From Flammeovirgaceae bacterium (GTDB taxonomy: Bacteria; Bacteroidota; Bacteroidia; Cytophagales; Cyclobacteriaceae), in contig CP054185.1 in the NCBI GenBank assembly GCA_015180985.1, positions 744,001 through 808,000 of the forward strand: a stretch of DNA of 64,000 bases, given 5' to 3'. The position numbers and the translations under genes were made by a program. Shown one piece after another: positions 35,971 to 46,228 of this stretch (within the stretch, counting starts at the first letter, position 1; each line of letters begins with the position of its first letter). A model generated the notes under the pieces. It had not been told where the DNA came from. It was given only the letters and a program-made list of their open reading frames with translations, and searched no databases.

Positions 35971-36726
35971 ATGAAAGATTTACCTTCAGACCATTCGAAA
36001 CAGGTTGAATTGCTTCTTCAGAAAATTGAAGAACTTACTCAGAGTCAGCGCCACCTGCTCACCATCGCTTCACACGATGTAAAGTCGCCATTTAACCGCA
36101 TGCATGCTTTGTTGCAACTGCTGCAAATGAATGTAACAAACTTAACCGATGAGCAGAGGAACTACCTCGAAAAAATGCACATCGTTATTGCCGATGGCAT
36201 GGCCATGATCCGCAACCTGATTGATTACCGCAACCTGGAATATCAGGGCCTTAAACTGATGCCGGCCCCTTTTAGCCTTCGCGAATTTATCCATACCTCG
36301 CTAAAGGCAATTGATGGTGTGGCACGCAAGAAGCAACTTACACTTATAGCGAGCACGGTTGACGATTGCGAATTGCACACCGACCGTCACTGCCTGCAGC
36401 GTGCGTTTGATAATTTACTCTCCAATGCAATTAAATTTTCCTTTCCGGGAAAGTCGGTACATGTTCAGGCTGCTGTTTCCGGTAACCATGCCTTGATTGA
36501 AGTAGCTGATGAGGCGCGTGGATTTCTGCCCAATGAACGTGCTTCGCTGTTTAAAAAATTCAGCCGGTTTTCCAACCGCCCGACCGGAGGGGAAAGCAGT
36601 ACAGGCCTTGGCCTGTACATTACGCAAGCCATGATGCAAAAAATAAGAGGAGGTGTGGAGTGTCAGACAACCGAAGGTATAGGCTCCGTGTTCCGGTTAA
36701 CGTTTCCGACACGATTGCCGTCCTGA
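35971..36726 (+). CDS. Histidine kinase without sensor domain
   Basis: A 251-residue soluble histidine kinase consisting of a coiled-coil start, a dimerisation/H-box (His35 in IASHDVKSPF) and a HATPase domain. The N-box is at N152 (NLLSNAIKFS), and the G2 box is at 212-215 (GLGL). The G1 box is irregular: DEARG at 180-184 where DxGxG is usual, so ATP binding could be altered. There is no sensor or membrane domain, so the input signal must come from a partner. The last codons and the stop codon (36713-36726) are part of the palindromic repeat that starts here. Confidence 0.88.
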   Translation: MKDLPSDHSKQVELLLQKIEELTQSQRHLLTIASHDVKSPFNRMHALLQLLQMNVTNLTDEQRNYLEKMHIVIADGMAMIRNLIDYRNLEYQGLKLMPAPFSLREFIHTSLKAIDGVARKKQLTLIASTVDDCELHTDRHCLQRAFDNLLSNAIKFSFPGKSVHVQAAVSGNHALIEVADEARGFLPNERASLFKKFSRFSNRPTGGESSTGLGLYITQAMMQKIRGGVECQTTEGIGSVFRLTFPTRLPS

Positions 36727-36936
36727 GCCACACGTAGGACCAATTATCCGAGTCAACAAATTAAATGATGCTTCGCTGAACTCAGCATAACAAAAAAAGA
36801 TTGTCGTCCTGAGCCACGCGAAGGACCTCCTTATCTGGGTCACATAACAAGAGATGCTTCGCTAATCGCTCAGCATAACAAATAAACAGATTGTCTTCCA
36901 TAGCCACACCCAAGCGGGGCGAAGGACCTCTTTACC
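36713..36936. repeat. Palindromic repeat units 1-3 left of the GIY-YIG gene
   Basis: Two complete units and the left half of a third. Each unit has a left half (GTCCTGAGCCACGCGAAGGAC-like), a 20-35 base AT-rich spacer and a right half (ATGCTTCGCT...GCTCAGCAT-like). The halves are imperfect inverted copies of each other (TCCTGAGC..GCGAAGGA against TGCTGAGC..GCGAAGCA), and each can form a short hairpin. Units start at 36713, 36799 and 36889. Unit 3 lacks its right half, which reappears after the nuclease gene. Confidence 0.88.
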
Positions 36937-36975
36937 AACGTTCTAAAAATCTTTTACTTAGTAAGCCATTAATTA

Positions 36976-37326
36976 ATGAACCACCGCTTCTACACCTATA
37001 TTACAACCAACCCATCTAAAAGGGTTCTCTATATCGGCATGACAAATCAGTTGGATCAACGGATTATTGAGCATTACCTGAACAGAGGAAACCCTGAAAC
37101 TTTTGCCGGAAAATATTATTGCTATTGCCTGATCTATTGGGAAGATTTTCAATGGGTTCACGATGCCATTGCAAGAGAAAAGGAACTTAAGGGGTGGACC
37201 CGGAAAAAGAAATTAAACCTGATTCGAAAAAGTAATCCCAACCTGAATTTTTTGAATAAAAGCATTATGCCTGATTGGCCACCAAAAAATGCACAATCTC
37301 GTTCAGCACCGAGGAAGAAAAATTAA
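36976..37326 (+). CDS. GIY-YIG endonuclease embedded in a repeat unit
   Basis: A 116-residue single-domain GIY-YIG nuclease. The signature is YTYI (residues 6-9) followed by LYIGMT (18-23), then R29 in DQRIIEH and the catalytic Glu in AREKELKGW (about 68). It resembles the small GIY-YIG proteins that occur in many copies in Bacteroidota. The gene lies between the left half (ending about 36936) and right half (from about 37335) of one repeat unit, so it may be the autonomous member of that repeat family. It could also be a stand-alone DNA repair or homing nuclease that happened to land here. Confidence 0.88.
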   Translation: MNHRFYTYITTNPSKRVLYIGMTNQLDQRIIEHYLNRGNPETFAGKYYCYCLIYWEDFQWVHDAIAREKELKGWTRKKKLNLIRKSNPNLNFLNKSIMPDWPPKNAQSRSAPRKKN

Positions 37327-37334
37327 TGTATGGA

Positions 37335-37870
37335 ACAAAAGATGCTTCGCTGAACTCAGCACAACAAAAAAACAGATTGTCTTCCGGAGCCACGCCAGAA
37401 GCGGGCGAAGGACCTCTTATCCGAACCAACAAACAAAAGATGCTTCGTCACGCCTTCAACGTGGCTCGGCATAGCAAAAAACTTAGTTGACCCGAGCAAA
37501 ACGAAGAAACTTTGTTAAAATCAAAAAAATTTGTTGTCCTGAGCCACGCATAAGCGGGGCGAAGGACCTCTTATCCAGGTCATAAACAAAAGATGCTTCG
37601 CTAATCGCTCAGCATAACAAATAAAGTTTGCCGTCCTGAGCCACGCCCAAAGCGGGGCGAAGGACCTCCTTATCTGGGTCACATAACAAGAGATGCTTCA
37701 CTACGTTCAGCATAACAAATAAACAGCAAGCCAACAAATTAAGAGATGCTTCGCTCTCGCTCAGCATAACAAATAAGATTGTCGTCCTGAGCCACGCCTA
37801 AGCATGGCGAAGGACCTCTTATCCTGGTCATAAAACAAGAAGATGCTTCGCTAATCGCTCAGCATAACAA
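37335..37870. repeat. Palindromic repeat cluster right of the GIY-YIG gene
   Basis: This stretch begins with the right half of the split unit (37335-37370) and then holds four further units starting at about 37375, 37531, 37626 and 37777, plus an orphan right half at 37742-37775. Left halves read like GTCCTGAGCCACGC...GGGGCGAAGGACCTC and right halves like AGATGCTTCGCT...CTCAGCATAACA. Lengths vary between about 93 and 106 bases with substitutions, so copies are diverged. No reading frame or other gene is supported here. Confidence 0.88.
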
Positions 37871-37883
37871 GTAAAAAATAGCT

Positions 37884-38267
37884 TTAATTGAAGAGGTAAT
37901 AATCTTCATCCTTGCCCTCGAGGATGGCTTTGATGGATTCAATCACGCTGTCATCTTTAATAACGTAATCACGAACCCCCTTCCGGATAAAACTCAGCAC
38001 CAGGTTGCCATCGTCAATAGCGCTCATCATGATGAGTTTGTTCTGATCTTTCATCTTGGCTTTAATGGCCTCGTAAAAATCAATGCCGGTTTTTCCGGGC
38101 AGTTTGTAATCCACAATAAAGGCATCCGGTAACGGGCCGCCATTCATCGCCTTCAGACACTCTTCGGCCGACTTGAAACTCTTTATTTTGAGGTTCGGAT
38201 CCTGCGCAAGCGCCCGCTGAATGAACTCAGCGTAAATCTCATCGTCTTCGATGATGTGAATGGTCAT
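37884..38267 (-). CDS. Single-domain response regulator
   Basis: A 127-residue receiver domain with no output domain, like CheY. The acidic pocket (Asp8, Asp9 in IEDDE), the phosphorylation site Asp53 (FIVDYKLPG), the Ser in MMSAIDDG and the conserved Lys104 (YVIKDD) are all present. It is coded opposite the histidine kinase across the repeat cluster and may be its partner, but being convergent they do not share a transcript. Confidence 0.93.
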   Translation of the reverse strand: MTIHIIEDDEIYAEFIQRALAQDPNLKIKSFKSAEECLKAMNGGPLPDAFIVDYKLPGKTGIDFYEAIKAKMKDQNKLIMMSAIDDGNLVLSFIRKGVRDYVIKDDSVIESIKAILEGKDEDYYLFN

Positions 38268-40663: not shown

Positions 40664-41437
40664 ATGAAAGAAGGCCAAAAACTCTGGACGCGTGAAGATC
40701 TGATCCTAACGATTAACCTTTACTGCAAACTCCCCTTTGGTAAACTTCACAGCAGAAATCCTGATGTGATTGAGTTAGCAAACCTGATTCATCGTACACC
40801 CGGTTCGGTCGCTTTTAAACTTGTGAACTTTGCAAGTCTTGATCCGCAACTTAAAGCAAGAGGCATTAAAGGTGCTTCGAACGTAAGTAATTTAGATAAA
40901 GAGATTTGGAATGAGTTCTTCAACAATTGGGATAACCTGTTTATAGAGAGTGAAAATCTATATGCAAAGAAGAAAAAAATCACTGTTGACCGATTATACG
41001 AAATTGACTTAACTGATTTGCCGAAAAGTGGCGAAGAAAAAGAGAGAATGGTTAAAGTAAGAACGAATCAAATTGTGTTTCGAACATTAGTAATGACCAA
41101 TTATGATTTTAGTTGCTGCATCACGGGCATCAATCAACCTGAATTACTGATTGCAAGTCACATTAAGCCTTGGAGTCAGGATACCACTAACAGGTTAAAT
41201 CCTAAAAATGGATTATCGCTGAACGCACTTCACGATAAAGCTTTCGATAACGGACTCATTACCATTACTGAAGACTATAAAGTAAAAGTGTCCTCAATTT
41301 TGCTGAAGAAAGAATCAACCAAAAGCATCAAACAAAACTTTATACAGTTTCATAATAAGCAGATTACACTACCAAAAAAGTTTATGCCCGATCCAGAATT
41401 TTTGAAACATCACAATCATGAGTACTTCAAGAAATAA
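40664..41437 (+). CDS. HNH endonuclease (restriction-type)
   Basis: A 257-residue HNH nuclease. The N-terminal region (1-120) is a family-specific DNA-binding-like part (W8-T-R-E-D-L start, LIHRTPGSVAFKLVNF). The HNH motif is complete: C151/C152 with ITG, H166 in ASHIKPW, N182 in NGLSLN and H190 with D195 in LHDKAFDNGL. This build matches proteins annotated as HNH restriction endonucleases in Bacteroides and other genomes. No methylase is next to it, so a restriction role is not shown. It overlaps the next ORF by 20 bases. Confidence 0.88.
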   Translation: MKEGQKLWTREDLILTINLYCKLPFGKLHSRNPDVIELANLIHRTPGSVAFKLVNFASLDPQLKARGIKGASNVSNLDKEIWNEFFNNWDNLFIESENLYAKKKKITVDRLYEIDLTDLPKSGEEKERMVKVRTNQIVFRTLVMTNYDFSCCITGINQPELLIASHIKPWSQDTTNRLNPKNGLSLNALHDKAFDNGLITITEDYKVKVSSILLKKESTKSIKQNFIQFHNKQITLPKKFMPDPEFLKHHNHEYFKK

Positions 41438-41699: not shown

Positions 41700-41834
41700 A
41701 ATAAGTGAATTTATAGAGTTTATTGACAGGCTGCCTCGATATGAACAAAGTCACAATATTTAAATATGCTTGATGTAAAATAAGTTAACCGGTCTGCTGG
41801 CCTAGCTAATTTTTATATTTTGTCTTTAACAAAG

Positions 41835-43541
41835 ATGATTGATAAAAAAATTGCCGTTCTTATAGGGAAAGCTATAAGAGAAGGAAAATATCTAAACATT
41901 ACTTATAAAAATAAGAGTGGAGAGATCACGCCATTCTGGATTAGCATACAAGACATTAATGCAAATGATGAGCTGTATGTACATATGTTTAATGTCACAA
42001 AGGACGAACCACTTTTAAATAAAAAAATATTTATCTCAGGAATTCAGTCAGCTGAAATTCTGAAATTTTCACACTATGAAGTCCCTGAAGAACTAATAAG
42101 AAAACTGGAGGAGGATAAGAGTTTGCAGATCTATGATTTTCACAGGTATGACAATAACATTTTGAATTATTACCTCGAATGCTACAAAGCAAATAGAGAC
42201 CCCTTTCTGCACAAAACCTATCTTATTCAAGGCTTAGATCTCCCAGAATTACAAAAGAAAGCTCCCTATTCATTAACGGATACACAACTAAAGCAAATAG
42301 TTAGGGAGATCTACAACAATGAATTTAATTCCTTCAATGACTATGATTTGGCTTTATGTGAGTTTTCTATTGACTTATTCTCGAGAGGCAAATTTGTAGT
42401 GGCTTTCAGAAAGCTAACGTTTGACCCTGTTCAAAAAACGCTACATCTTGGCAGCAAATCAGAATTTAACCCCAATTTCTACATACAAGGGATTAAGCAT
42501 ACGCTTTCTTACTACACAGATTTAAGTCCGGCTGATTTTGAAGCAATGTATGCCAACAATAAGGCTGAAACCATTGAGCTGTTGAAAGGTAATTTTAAGA
42601 TGGGTGAGCTGCCTAATACAAGACCTGAAGTAGTTGTTTTGGGGTATACTCAGGTTGACATTGCTCGAATTTATGACAACATAAATTCAGATCACAAGAA
42701 CAATGAAGTACAGATTCCTATAAAAGCATTTTTTCAAAACCCCTCACTGCTGGACAGAAAGAATAGAAAAGAGCCCCACATTGTTTTGTATGATAATCAG
42801 GTAAACATCGACCAGCTCCGTACGGTCTACAATGCCCTAAAATACCCGATCACGTACGTGCAAGGCCCACCCGGCACAGGTAAAACCCAAACACTGTTAA
42901 ATATCATTGTGAATTGCCTGGCCAATGGCAAAAAACTTCTGATTTCGTCTAATAACAATGTGCCAATAGATGGCATAAAGGAGAAATTGTATTTAGGCGA
43001 GTATCGTGGAAAAAAAATATTACTTCCCGTAATCAGGTTGGGTAATAACGAATATGTAGCAAAGGCATTAAGAATCATAAAAGCCTTGTATGCATTTGAA
43101 ACAAAGGACGTACCTAAGGAGGAGCTGTTAATTAATTTGAAAGAGAAGTCGAAAGAGAATAATAAGTTATTGCTAAGCAGGTTAAAACAGTATGAGGATC
43201 GGCTTGACGTAAAACAAAACCTCGAATTCGTAAATGGATTATTGTCAAAAGAGCAAAACCACCTGCTGGAAAAGGAAAAGAATAAACTAGAGGAAAAACT
43301 TGCTCAGCTACCAGATATTACCAATGAGGACTTAAAAAACATCTATGAAGTAATCAAGGGCAATCATCAATTGCTTCAATTCTTTTACTTCGAATCATTG
43401 CGTTGCATTAAGCGATTAAAAACCAAGGATTACGCTCCACTTATTGAAATCCTGAATAATGAAGATGAGCAAGCCCAAATAAAAGAATTTAATAAGTGGA
43501 TCGCTGATGATGATAATCTGGAGAAATTCACAAAAGGGTAA
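41835..43541 (+). pseudogene. SF1 helicase, 5' fragment interrupted by IS256
   Basis: The first 567 codons of a large superfamily 1 helicase. ATG 41835 is preferred over the TTG five codons upstream. Residues 1-80 resemble a WYL-like domain (GKYLNITYKNKSGE, then ELYVHMFN). The Walker A loop is at 344-351 (GPPGTGKT) and a charged coiled-coil region covers about 430-500. The frame then enters the IS element and stops within two codons (TKG*). The rest of the gene continues after the element. Alone, this fragment has no Walker B or other helicase motifs, so it should be inactive as a helicase. Confidence 0.88.
43529..43536 (+). repeat. 8-bp direct repeat, left copy (probable target duplication)
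   Basis: CACAAAAG lies directly at the left IS end (its last base is shared with the first G of the inverted repeat). The same eight bases occur at 44938-44945. Both are in the same reading frame of the helicase (Thr-Lys), and joining them restores the gene. IS256-family elements make 8-9 bp duplications. Confidence 0.72.
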
Positions 43542-44908
43542 CGACTAAGCAACTGTGTAAAGGCCCGATTCGGCCTTGCTGAAAGGGGATGTGGAATGTA
43601 CCACTTTCAGCCGAATCGGTTGCATTTAAAGACTTAACTTTAAACACAGTTACCATGGAAAATCAAGAACAACACCCACTACTCAAAGAGATGCTCACCC
43701 CTGAGTTTCTCAAGCAATTTAAGAATTCGAAAGACCTCAACAGCTTTATCGATGAACTTTTCAAAAAGGGCATGGAGCAAATGCTGGAAGGTGAACTCGA
43801 TGGCCATTTGGGCTATGCCAAACATTCACCAGAAGGGATTAACTCCGGGAACTCACGGAACGGAAAAACCCGTAAGACCATCAAGACCACGCGAGGTGAA
43901 CTACAGATAGAAGTACCTCGGGATCGGAACAGCACGTTTGAGCCCGTCCTGGTTCCCAAGCGCAGCCGGTTCGTAGAAGGCATCGAAGAAATTATCATCT
44001 CCTTATATGCCCGGGGTATGAGCGTACGCGACATTGAAATACAAATCCGGGAAATCTATGGTGTGAATGTTTCGGATGCCACTATTTCCAACGTTACCTC
44101 GCGGGTACATACGTTGGTAACGGAGTGGCAAAGCAGGCCTCTTTCATCGGTGTACTTTGTGGTGTGGATGGATGGGATCGTATTCAAAGTCCGGCAGAAT
44201 GGGAAGGTGATCAACAAAACCATTTACCTGGCCGTAGGCCTTAATGCTCAGGGGTTTAAGGAAGTATTGGGCATGTGGCTGGGTGAAAGCGAAAGTGCTT
44301 CATTCTGGATAAGTGTACTTACTGATTTAAAAAGCCGTGGCGTGGAAGATATTCTCATCACCAGCACCGATAATCTGAAGGGCTTCACCGATGCAATCAC
44401 CAGCGTGTTTACCCAATCGGTAACCCAGATTTGTGTAGTTCATCAGATCAGAAATGCGCTTCGCTACGTTGTCTGGAAAGACAAGAAACAATTTGTAGCC
44501 GATTTGAAGACTGTTTACGGAGCACCAAACAAAGAGCTGGCTGCTCAAGCCTTAGAGCAGCTTGAAGTAACATGGGGCAAAAAATATCCGCATGCTATCA
44601 AGTCGTGGAAAACGAATTGGGATAACCTCACGCACTTCTTCGATTATCCGATCGAAATCCGAACGCTGATCTATACCACGAACATTATCGAAAATCTCAA
44701 CGGAAAAATCCGCAAGTATACCAACAACAAACTTTCGTTCCCTGACGACCAGGCGGTGGTGAAAGCGGTGTACCTGGCTTTACGGGAGATCACCAAAAAA
44801 TGGACCTTGCCCGTGAGAAACTGGCCACTAATCGTAAATCAATTTTTAACTATCTTCGAAGGCAGATGCAAAATATAAAACCTTTACGCAGTTGCTTAGT
44901 CGTTACCC
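43536..44908 (+). mobile_element. IS256-family insertion sequence, complete copy 2
   Basis: A 1373-base element with 28-bp terminal inverted repeats (43536-43563 and 44881-44908) differing at one position. The ends begin GGGTAACGACTAAGCAACTG, and GTGTAAAGG sits about 18 bases from the outer end as in IS256. It lies in the opposite orientation to the copy at 1-1159 and matches it over the shared 1159 bases. The bases directly outside the two inverted repeats do not match each other; the likely duplication lies 29-30 bases further out on the right. Confidence 0.95.
43655..44878 (+). CDS. IS256-family transposase, full length
   Basis: A 407-residue transposase. ATG 43655 (MENQEQHPLL) is preferred to the ATG at 43589, whose first 22 codons cover the sub-terminal IS sequence. 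The DDE triad is present: Asp in WMDGIVF, Asp in STDNLKGF and Glu in TNIIENLNGK. The last of these is followed by the C(2)H-like region. No frameshift or stop interrupts it, so the element can probably still move. Confidence 0.95.
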   Translation: MENQEQHPLLKEMLTPEFLKQFKNSKDLNSFIDELFKKGMEQMLEGELDGHLGYAKHSPEGINSGNSRNGKTRKTIKTTRGELQIEVPRDRNSTFEPVLVPKRSRFVEGIEEIIISLYARGMSVRDIEIQIREIYGVNVSDATISNVTSRVHTLVTEWQSRPLSSVYFVVWMDGIVFKVRQNGKVINKTIYLAVGLNAQGFKEVLGMWLGESESASFWISVLTDLKSRGVEDILITSTDNLKGFTDAITSVFTQSVTQICVVHQIRNALRYVVWKDKKQFVADLKTVYGAPNKELAAQALEQLEVTWGKKYPHAIKSWKTNWDNLTHFFDYPIEIRTLIYTTNIIENLNGKIRKYTNNKLSFPDDQAVVKAVYLALREITKKWTLPVRNWPLIVNQFLTIFEGRCKI

Positions 44909-44937
44909 AGCACTTACACACTTAATTAGGCAGTGTC
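44909..44937. other. 29 unexplained bases between IS end and repeat
   Basis: These bases belong neither to the helicase frame nor to the inverted repeat of the element. They separate the right IS end from the second CACAAAAG. They contain an in-frame stop (TAG at 44927). They do not resemble the flank of copy 1 visible at 1160-1188. They may be carried from a previous insertion site or be filler. Confidence 0.6.
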
Positions 44938-46228
44938 CACAAAAGTTTTTCCTGTTATTCTTACCACCAATCTATCCAGCCGTAAACTGGGTAAAAAGTA
45001 TAAGTTTGATTTACTCGCCATTGACGAAGCCGGTCAATGTGATGTAGCAACAAGTCTTATCCCAATTTCAAAGTGTAAGAATATCGTGCTAATAGGTGAC
45101 ACCAATCAACTAAAACCCATTGTTCTTTTCGAGGAAACCAGAAATGAAGAGTTGATGAAACAGTTCGCTGTAAGTGAGCCATATGACTACTTCCATAATT
45201 CCATTCTTTCAACCTACAAGCGAATCGACAACATATCGAGAGATATTTTATTGAGCTATCATTATCGCTGTGGTAAAAAGATAATCAACTTTTCTAACAT
45301 GCGGTTTTATGAGAACAAGTTGAATCTTTCAATGCTTAGTAATATCGGAGAGGTGCGACTGGTTGATGTGAATAATGTAAATCATAAGCTAAAGAATTCC
45401 ACACTGGAAGAGGCACAGGGTATAGTCAACTACATTAAAGAAAATAAACTATCCGATGCATTTATTATTACTCCATTCCGAAACCAAGAAGATGCTTTAA
45501 ATCACTTGTTGCAAGCAGCAAAAGAAAAGGGTGAAATTGATCCCTCCGTAAGTTGTGGCACAATTCATAAAGTTCAGGGACAGGAAAATAAGACTATTAT
45601 TATATCAACATCTATTTCAAGAGATACAACACCTCGTACCTATGATTGGGTAAAGAACAACAGTCAGTTAATTAACGTAGGGGTTACCAGGGCGCAAGAG
45701 AAATTAATTGTATTTACAGATAAAAAAGCTATCGAAAGTTTATCCAGAAAAGATGATGACTTATATGCGCTAATTGAATATGTGCAACAAAATGGAACTA
45801 CACAGGTCTCTCAAAGCACGGTAAACAAGTTCACCATTGGTTTCTCAAATAATTCAGTATTCGAAGATGAATTCTATAAAACGATGAGTCATTACTGTTC
45901 GATTCAGGGATCGAGATTTAAAAGAAATGTAAAACTAACAGACCTGTTTCCAGAAGAGATCAATAATCCAGCTTTAAATAAACGAGAGTTTGATGGTGTT
46001 ATCTATGTGGGTAAAGTACCTCAGATAGTATTTGAGATCAATGGTGCTGATCATTACCACAATAGAAAACGGATGGAGTCTGATAAACTTAAAGGTCAAT
46101 TGATTAATAGCAAAAATCTCAAATTGATTCTAATCCCAAATCAATATGTTAAGCACTATGAATATATACGAGAGTTAATGAATAAAATCAAAGGGGGTAC
46201 TTATCAAAAAACTTTGTTTGAAGTCTGA
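44938..46228 (+). pseudogene. SF1 helicase, 3' fragment with nuclease-like domain
   Basis: The rest of the helicase after the insertion. It contains the DEAG box (LLAIDEAGQ), GDTNQLKP, YHYRCGKKI, TPFRNQ, GTIHKVQGQENKTI and VGVTRAQEKL, i.e. motifs II-VI. The last 120 residues form a DUF2726-like nuclease domain (KREFDGVIYVGKVPQIVFEING), a restriction-endonuclease-like fold. A GTG at 44933 could start translation, but it lies in the extra bases and would give a product lacking Walker A. Codons resemble those of the 5' fragment, and the two halves join in frame to 994 residues. Confidence 0.88.

Follow-up and report, generated by a model that had tools for sequence, protein, structure and literature searches.

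The DNA analysed here is a stretch of 64,000 nucleotides, hereafter the window, from a Flammeovirgaceae bacterium (contig CP054185.1, positions 744,001 to 808,000), whose genome, G000, is a single contig of 3.38 Mb. A histidine-kinase-like gene (35971-36726, +) and a response-regulator-like gene (37884-38267, -), both named by eye from the translations of their open reading frames (ORFs), flank an array of inverted palindromic half-repeats in the window, and within that array lies a gene for a single-domain GIY-YIG nuclease. It is close to certain that the clade of this nuclease is associated with repetitive extragenic palindromes (REPs) of the CGTC type, marked by a GTC tag. From the arrangement of these sequences we consider it likely that the array belongs to a family resembling REPINs, i.e., REPs paired in inverted orientation, with the nuclease as its dedicated mobiliser.

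The array is composed of the following features, all halves being located by script:

36716..36743, + strand: left half 1, overlapping the stop codon of the histidine-kinase-like gene (also by direct reading and ORFs)
36766..36792, - strand: right half 1
36802..36829, + strand: left half 2
36852..36880, - strand: right half 2
36892..36930, + strand: left half 3, 45 nt upstream of the GIY-YIG gene
36976..37326, + strand: gene of the GIY-YIG single-domain nuclease, 116 aa (PF01541, E 1.3e-13; conserved columns over 33 proteins)
37340..37366, - strand: right half 3, 13 nt downstream of the GIY-YIG gene
37378..37416, + strand: left half 4
37438..37476, - strand: right half 4 (diverged)
37532..37570, + strand: left half 5
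37591..37619, - strand: right half 5
37629..37668, + strand: left half 6
37691..37717, - strand: right half 6
37744..37771, - strand: extra right half without a left partner
37780..37818, + strand: left half 7
37841..37869, - strand: right half 7, ending 14 nt before the response-regulator-like gene (also by ORFs)

Direct reading and the script together give seven left and eight right halves across 36716-37869. The left half is built as TGTC-GTCCT-GAGC..GCGA-AGGAC-CTC (TGTCGTCCTGAGC..GCGAAGGACCTC type), and the right half, AGATGCTTCGC..GCTCAGCATAACA, is approximately its reverse complement. A reading of the window from its sequence only had described seven units of two inverted halves, one of them split by the nuclease gene. 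Seven left/right sets are indeed present, with the gene bracketed by halves 36892-36930 and 37340-37366; the unpaired right half at 37744-37771 falls outside that description. The core of the right half has eight matches at up to two mismatches, against a shuffled mean of 0.07, and two stricter cores match 7 and 6 times inside the array and 0 and 0 times in the remaining 62.8 kb of the window. Rfam gave no match for 36600-38000. Used as a query against its own genome, the array returned 22 matches at E ≤1, counting the array itself and chance-level ones. The second large cluster of the same family, at 2173-2177 kb of G000 (L021), is gene-less, and the search for a GIY-YIG relic within it found none (best E 0.13).

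The window protein belongs to the GIY-YIG superfamily (PF01541, 51.5 bits against a cut-off of 22.6, E 1.3e-13), and Pfam detects the GIY-YIG domain alone. In the alignment columns of 33 proteins of the clade, Y8, G21, R29, H33, E68 and N87 are invariant and Y19 nearly so; by analogy with the superfamily, these seven residues are presumed to be catalytic.

GTC-tagged repeats beside relatives of the gene

Among the 147 genomes scanned, comprising G000 and its relatives, 68 have a match to the window protein at E ≤1e-6. Part of the matched places was collected as set A: 61 regions, i.e., the window and 60 others, extending up to 7 kb on each side and chosen mostly for the strongest matches, plus some of the same genus. 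An alignment of 24 set-A proteins was then used as a query against one genome per bacterial and archaeal species, and the best 80 by similarity of at least 575 encoded relatives constitute set B. Its labels include Bacteroidetes, Chlorobiota, Chloroflexi, cyanobacteria, Brocadiaceae, Phycisphaerae, Alpha- and Gammaproteobacteria, Campylobacteraceae, Leptospiraceae, Fibrobacter, Clostridia and several candidate phyla. Relatives of the gene occur up to eight per genome, scattered and annotated only as 'GIY-YIG nuclease family protein'.

Repeats surround these genes even when no motif is imposed. In set A, self-similar DNA accounts for 48.9% of the bases within 250 bp of the gene, falling to 26.6% at 250-500 bp, to 7.5% at 500-1000 bp and to 1.9-3.8% farther than 1 kb away. 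Of the 61 regions, 56 carry a repeat within 250 bp; the near share exceeds the far one in 55, is lower in 2 and equal in 4. In set B the corresponding values are 34.4% near the gene and 2.6-3.0% at more than 1 kb, and 70 of the 80 loci show a repeat. Read from the flanks of 16 and 20 set-A loci and 29 set-B loci, the repeat body varies by genome and its design is constant: GTC, a stem usually starting with AT, a loop, the complementary stem and C.

Within 300 bp of the gene, a detector written after this design (GTC, a 5-bp stem, loop, complement, C) counts 187 halves in set A (4.7/kb, 48/61 loci) versus 0.14/kb beyond 1.5 kb, and 252 in set B (5.2/kb, 74/80 loci) versus 0.27/kb. Halves with GTC tag and C tail are therefore enriched 19-35 fold near the gene, and eight other tags, at 0-0.23/kb near the gene, are not enriched in either set. 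Other final letters than C give 0.19-0.39/kb near the gene, with the exception of GTC/G in set A. At the window's own gene the exact detector sees one half only, because the stems vary there; the window is therefore an atypical member of the family. In Sphingomonadales loci that had not been seen before the detector was fixed, a half lies within 300 bp in 28 of 30, with 83 GTC halves in total versus 2-7 for each of the eight other tags.

The association is specific to this clade of nucleases. For seven other GIY-YIG matches of G000, including UvrC and one that falls short of the Pfam cut-off, the 1.5 kb on each side contains no such half; in this the other small GIY-YIG genes of the genome differ from that of the window. 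The tie between gene and repeat, which the sequence-only reading had put forward from a single locus, thus recurs among homologues of the clade elsewhere (48/61, 74/80 and 28/30 loci) and is absent from the other GIY-YIG matches of G000 (0/7).

As the halves favour intergenic over coding DNA, one may ask if repeats and small genes simply gather, by chance or at a shared insertion hot spot, in the same permissive intergenic DNA. Counted in intergenic DNA only, however, their density near and distant from the gene is 5.4 vs 0.34/kb in set A and 7.2 vs 0.74/kb in set B, a 10-16x difference, and other tags are not enriched. Moreover, as described below, the gene takes the spacer position within a unit that has the same ends as its gene-less counterparts, and the repeat stems covary with the protein. 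We regard this explanation as negligible.

Three other measures were tried and set aside. Scoring inverted repeats between upstream and downstream flanks was weaker than the tag test, because the halves are short and diverged: 19/61 and 26/80 loci stood above the 99th percentile of controls, the window not included. The flanks are alike in direct orientation too (median 31 vs 11 in controls), as expected from arrays. A first palindrome caller with 8-nt stems was noisy (3.2/kb near vs 0.48/kb far), and the pattern CTGAGC..GCGAAG suits the stem type of G000 and is no measure of repeat load in relatives.

Units with and without the gene

The anatomy of the unit is clearest in Porphyrobacter sp. 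AAP60 (locus L210, genome G148), which has 57 copies of GTCATTGCGAG..GCAATC. These form 21 adjacent pairs, 21/21 with the tags outside, the remaining copies being unpaired under this pattern. The spacer measures 35-42 nt in 20 pairs and 313 nt in one, where it holds a GIY-YIG gene. All of the 20 units read (of 21) are preceded by TC and followed by GA, giving the ends TC-GTCATTGCGAG..CTCGCAATGAC-GA; 19 of them are 98-113 nt long, and the gene-bearing one, with the same ends, 371 nt. In the latter the ATG of the ORF directly follows one half (..GCAATCC-ATG) and the stop codon abuts the tail of the other; the gene is therefore the spacer. Filled and empty units with identical ends, which the sequence-only reading had envisaged as autonomous and derived forms, thus coexist in one genome. 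Spacers of the gene-less AAP60 units are unconserved in sequence except at their ends.

The same register prevails elsewhere. Among isolated pairs, tags-outside, tags-inside and tandem arrangements number 16, 5 and 1 in set A and 22, 5 and 5 in set B, and the nearest halves point towards the gene ('> gene <') in 36 cases vs 7 in set B and 15 vs 3 in Sphingomonadales. The left-right register assumed by the sequence-only reading agrees with these isolated pairs, with a single left-right pair in the sister species G003 and with Porphyrobacter, where it is unambiguous; we consequently take it as the general one, the isolated pairs of G000 being the exception.

Both states, empty and filled, are found at orthologous sites between species, as the sequence-only reading had proposed comparing. 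For the gene-bearing Porphyrobacter unit (L354, G148), nine orthologous places were read in congeners. Four are empty (G368, G403, G147 and G404; 5-28 nt, with no trace of a half). In two more, repeats bound an insert of ~390 nt that contains an open GIY-YIG frame, oriented as in G148 in the case of G392 (L397; 113 aa, E 1.4e-33) and the opposite way in G385 (L396). The other three have other sequence, 129-138 nt in G376 and G355 and 377 nt in G364; the 129-138 nt insert is largely common to the two congeners (L398 and L395, respectively), which suggests that unrelated repeats reuse the site.

Gene-less units are polymorphic as well. At the L341 site, G386 and G384 have a unit and G351 and G377 have none. 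The L360 site holds one in G386, G358 and G374, a remnant half in G371 and no repeat in the five others read; G386 has a second, repeat-free match elsewhere. The L346 site is filled in G360, those of L350 and L345 are empty in G368 and G401, and a remnant half marks L342 in G393.

At the window's own locus, the response-regulator gene was found in 15 other congeners, of which 13 were readable. The sister species G003 has one degenerate bare left-right pair there and no homologue of the gene at E 1e-6. In nine congeners the two coding genes stand end to end, with neither repeat nor GIY-YIG gene. The last three (G007, G001 and G010; L129, L130 and L131) have at the kinase/response-regulator junction all or part of another palindrome, GTTGCCTGAGGC..GAAGGCAAC, which likewise overlaps the stop codon of the kinase gene. 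Among these congeners, none was found with the gene at this site and no halves beside it. Of seven repeat sites of G000 compared with G003, those at 425k, 661k, 1691k and 2304k have no repeat in G003, which shows other DNA at 2190k, a remnant at 1468k and a degenerate shared pair at 911k; exact target sites cannot be mapped against G003, because its intergenic DNA is too diverged.

The closest solved structures bring in another possible role for the nuclease. Only two match at E 0.001, 1zg2 (BH0048, E 7e-11) and 1ywl (EF2693, E 3e-7), prokaryotic proteins that the 2006 GIY-YIG survey places with Slx1-like proteins (PMC1564403); SLX1 is described as a promiscuous structure-selective endonuclease (PMC9071465). 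Solo GIY-YIG proteins of the Slx1-like/UPF0213 kind are single-domain like the window clade, but match it only distantly. The clade retains its invariant N87 near the C terminus, whereas the Slx1 lineage appears in the survey's listing with 'no C-terminal Asn' (PMC1564403), which may concern the same position. By analogy, the nuclease could serve the host by resolving cruciforms or hairpins of the repeats and safeguarding replication, the linkage being kept by selection with no mobilisation involved. A trans-acting resolvase, however, needs no place inside the repeat unit, and the patchy (68/147 relatives) and site-polymorphic presence of the gene suits a mobile gene better; we hold a purely host-serving role to be quite unlikely.

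Repeat load and stem type across genomes

Gene and repeat also go together at the scale of whole genomes. With a cut-off of E ≤1e-20, the gene is present in 99 of 196 Sphingomonadales genomes and absent from the other 97. The repeat type GTCATTGCGAG..GCAATCC is present in 1250 copies in the former and 116 in the latter (counts that ignore phylogeny); at least 20 copies occur in 18/99 genomes with the gene vs 1/97 without, and at least 40 copies in 13/99 vs 0/97. The stems, in turn, follow the protein: across 125 genes, a stem is shared by 7% of pairs at 35-40% protein identity and by 92% of those above 70% (Mantel r 0.37, reached in 0 of 999 permutations, with kinship ignored).

These data bear on the main rival explanation, in which the CGTC pairs owe their spread to something else and the GIY-YIG gene acts as a homing parasite: it would cut gene-less pairs and insert a copy of itself in the spacer, the halves serving as homology arms. 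GIY-YIG is a known fold of homing nucleases, as the survey cited above notes (PMC1564403). The gene sits exactly in the spacer position between conserved halves, as would a homing gene in its target, some genomes have repeats and no detected gene, and at the window's locus G003 shows a bare pair in place of the gene. The spacer that it occupies is mostly non-conserved, however, and as gene-less spacers are not conserved apart from their ends, there seems to be no fixed target to be interrupted. Further pairs lie in arrays around the gene in many regions, a high repeat number accompanies it (the 13/99 vs 0/97 above), and the four empty sites orthologous to the gene-bearing Porphyrobacter unit lack the halves as well. 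Homing endonucleases of the I-TevI type likewise present a mobile-looking nuclease gene in a possible target, and those of the T4 Seg type are further GIY-YIG examples; unlike in these, no intron or extra DNA-binding domain is seen here, and the flanking repeats have many gene-less copies. Homing is thus unlikely in our view, although it deserves more weight than any other alternative.

Several observations weigh against a nuclease that mobilises its repeats. The support is an association of sequences, from which we infer that the nuclease binds, cuts and moves the repeats. Around empty sites the flanks are dissimilar over 5-39 nt, which allows no target duplication to be called and leaves precise insertion or excision conjectural; of the marks of a transposable element, the units have constant ends (20/20) and polymorphic sites, and no clean target duplication. 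Isolated pairs of G000 (L222, L225, L227-L230, L232, L233 and L014) are by eye mostly right-then-left, with tags inside, ~10 versus one left-right pair at 661 kb, so that from G000 alone the gene can also be read as lying between units; the '> gene <' orientation is not significant in set A (13 vs 9, p 0.26). The detector was designed after the flanks had been read in part of sets A and B, a final G in place of C still yields 1.43/kb in set A, from 12 loci, and no half was detected within 300 bp in 13/61 set-A and 6/80 set-B loci. The repeat reaches 4 or more copies in nine Sphingomonadales genomes that lack the gene at E 1e-20; G163, with 35 the richest of the gene-less genomes, has no match at 1e-8, and three of the nine have weaker matches. 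Conversely, 58/99 genomes with the gene hold no copy of the GTCATTGCGAG..GCAATCC type, perhaps because they carry other stems. Finally, gene pairs below 35% identity share stems in 13% of cases, above the next bin, and both the covariation and the co-occurrence figures disregard phylogeny.

CGTC repeats and a proposed GIY-YIG mobile system

According to Di Nocera et al. 2013, most REPs are either of the GTAG type, which goes with RAYT transposases, or of the CGTC type (also TGTC and CCTC), which forms mostly pairs with tags outside (termed HH) and apparently has no dedicated transposase (PMC3733652). The same source distributes CGTC REPs among four families in five phyla and names S. meliloti, A. 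lipoferum, N. aromaticivorans and Neisseriae as hosts (PMC3733652).

From 32 records matching the nuclease we picked six named replicons that carry one of its relatives. Detector-positive CGTC halves lie within 400 bp of the gene in five of them, e.g. CGTCATTCCCGCGCAGGCGGGAATCCA, and in the sixth, pNL2 of N. aromaticivorans, there is by eye an inverted pair of the CGTCGCCCCGTG.. type. In the Neisseria and Aeromonas records, CGTCATTCCCGC..GCGGGAATCCA forms stand at the gene; in A. lipoferum, S. meliloti and Rhizobium its neighbours are forms that share the tag and have a CCA tail. The candidate enzyme gene therefore adjoins the orphan repeats in the very hosts where CGTC REPs were described.

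With the CGTC REPs the family shares the CGTC/TGTC tag, the AT-starting stem, the predominance of tags-outside pairs and spacers of mostly 20-100 nt. The published repeats were reported without a dedicated enzyme and from five phyla; here they are tied to a GIY-YIG gene at loci in many more phyla. Tag, AT stem and C tail characterise the family at large, and the window halves in variant form only; with their TGTC, TGCC or TGTT tag, GTCCT stem and long loops we file them as an atypical variant rather than as CGTC REPs proper. The stem of 8-9 bp and loop of 4-5 nt are found in the named proteobacterial records read; the window and a good many other loci depart from this, with loops that reach 10-30 nt. 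Tags are mostly outside, the window's own genome being the exception.

REPIN/RAYT systems have in common with the present family short inverted palindrome pairs, dispersed gene-less units and an enzyme gene beside the repeats (PMC3733652), as well as covariation of enzyme and repeat (PMC6006769). Their enzyme is of the HUH/Y1 class and their tag GTAG, in place of GIY-YIG and GTC here; unlike in those systems, the gene of the window family can itself be the spacer of the pair. RAYT-type Y1 transposases are common in the same clade (Y1_Tnp in 108/147 genomes, two in G000), and might move the repeats with the GIY-YIG gene as a passenger. Nevertheless, a GTC-tagged half within 300 bp was found at 0/19 Y1_Tnp loci of the clade, where other repeats occur, and G043 and G073 have the GIY-YIG gene with repeats and no Y1_Tnp match. 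On both counts we rejected RAYT as the mover of the GTC-tagged repeats, leaving it very improbable. Self-repeats of other kinds make up 39% of the near flanks of the Y1_Tnp loci; L238, L252 and L255, for example, lie beside palindromes of their own, such as GACCCC..GGGGTC and AGTCCCG..CGGGAC. These are apparently separate families of the RAYT type.

We now propose how the nuclease might act as mobiliser. The unit consists of two inverted GTC-tagged palindromes with the tags outermost, GTC-hairpin ... hairpin-GAC, most often around a short spacer with no gene and in some cases around the GIY-YIG gene, as at 36892-37366 within the array. The nuclease would recognise its cognate palindrome, probably as a hairpin or cruciform, which is the most natural guess given its structure-selective SLX1-like relatives, and would cut at or near the tag. 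Repair or strand transfer could then copy or move the pair, together with the gene if one is carried, to new intergenic sites. Gene-bearing units would be autonomous and gene-less pairs non-autonomous, as are RAYT genes and REPINs for GTAG repeats. A repeat family mobilised or maintained by the nuclease, with gene-bearing units as the autonomous form, is what the sequence-only reading had suggested; the comparisons made here argue for it, the nuclease itself being the putative agent of movement.

We lean slightly towards a wider version of this proposal, in which single-domain GIY-YIG nucleases mobilise the whole CGTC/TGTC REP superfamily across bacteria, as a previously unrecognised class of transposable systems parallel to RAYT/REPIN with an unrelated nuclease. 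If this is true, the autonomous element is a pair of inverted tagged hairpins with the nuclease ORF as spacer. CGTC REPs occur in many bacteria, and the cross-phylum tie offers a concrete candidate for their missing enzyme, together with a reason for the scatter of 'GIY-YIG nuclease family protein' genes; the origin of CGTC repeats becomes a question for the bench. Within PubMed Central, subscription papers and preprints lying outside it, no publication was found, among the matches listed and by title and opening of the abstract, that joins GIY-YIG nucleases with REP or extragenic palindromic repeats, and no other prokaryotic repeat family is known to be run by a solo GIY-YIG nuclease.

Elsewhere in the window, an IS256/mutator-type transposase-like ORF (43589-44878, +) lies between two ORFs that resemble pieces of one helicase-type gene (41820-43541 and 44933-46228), and an HNH-like ORF (40664-41437) stands upstream of this group (41820-46228), all assigned by eye.

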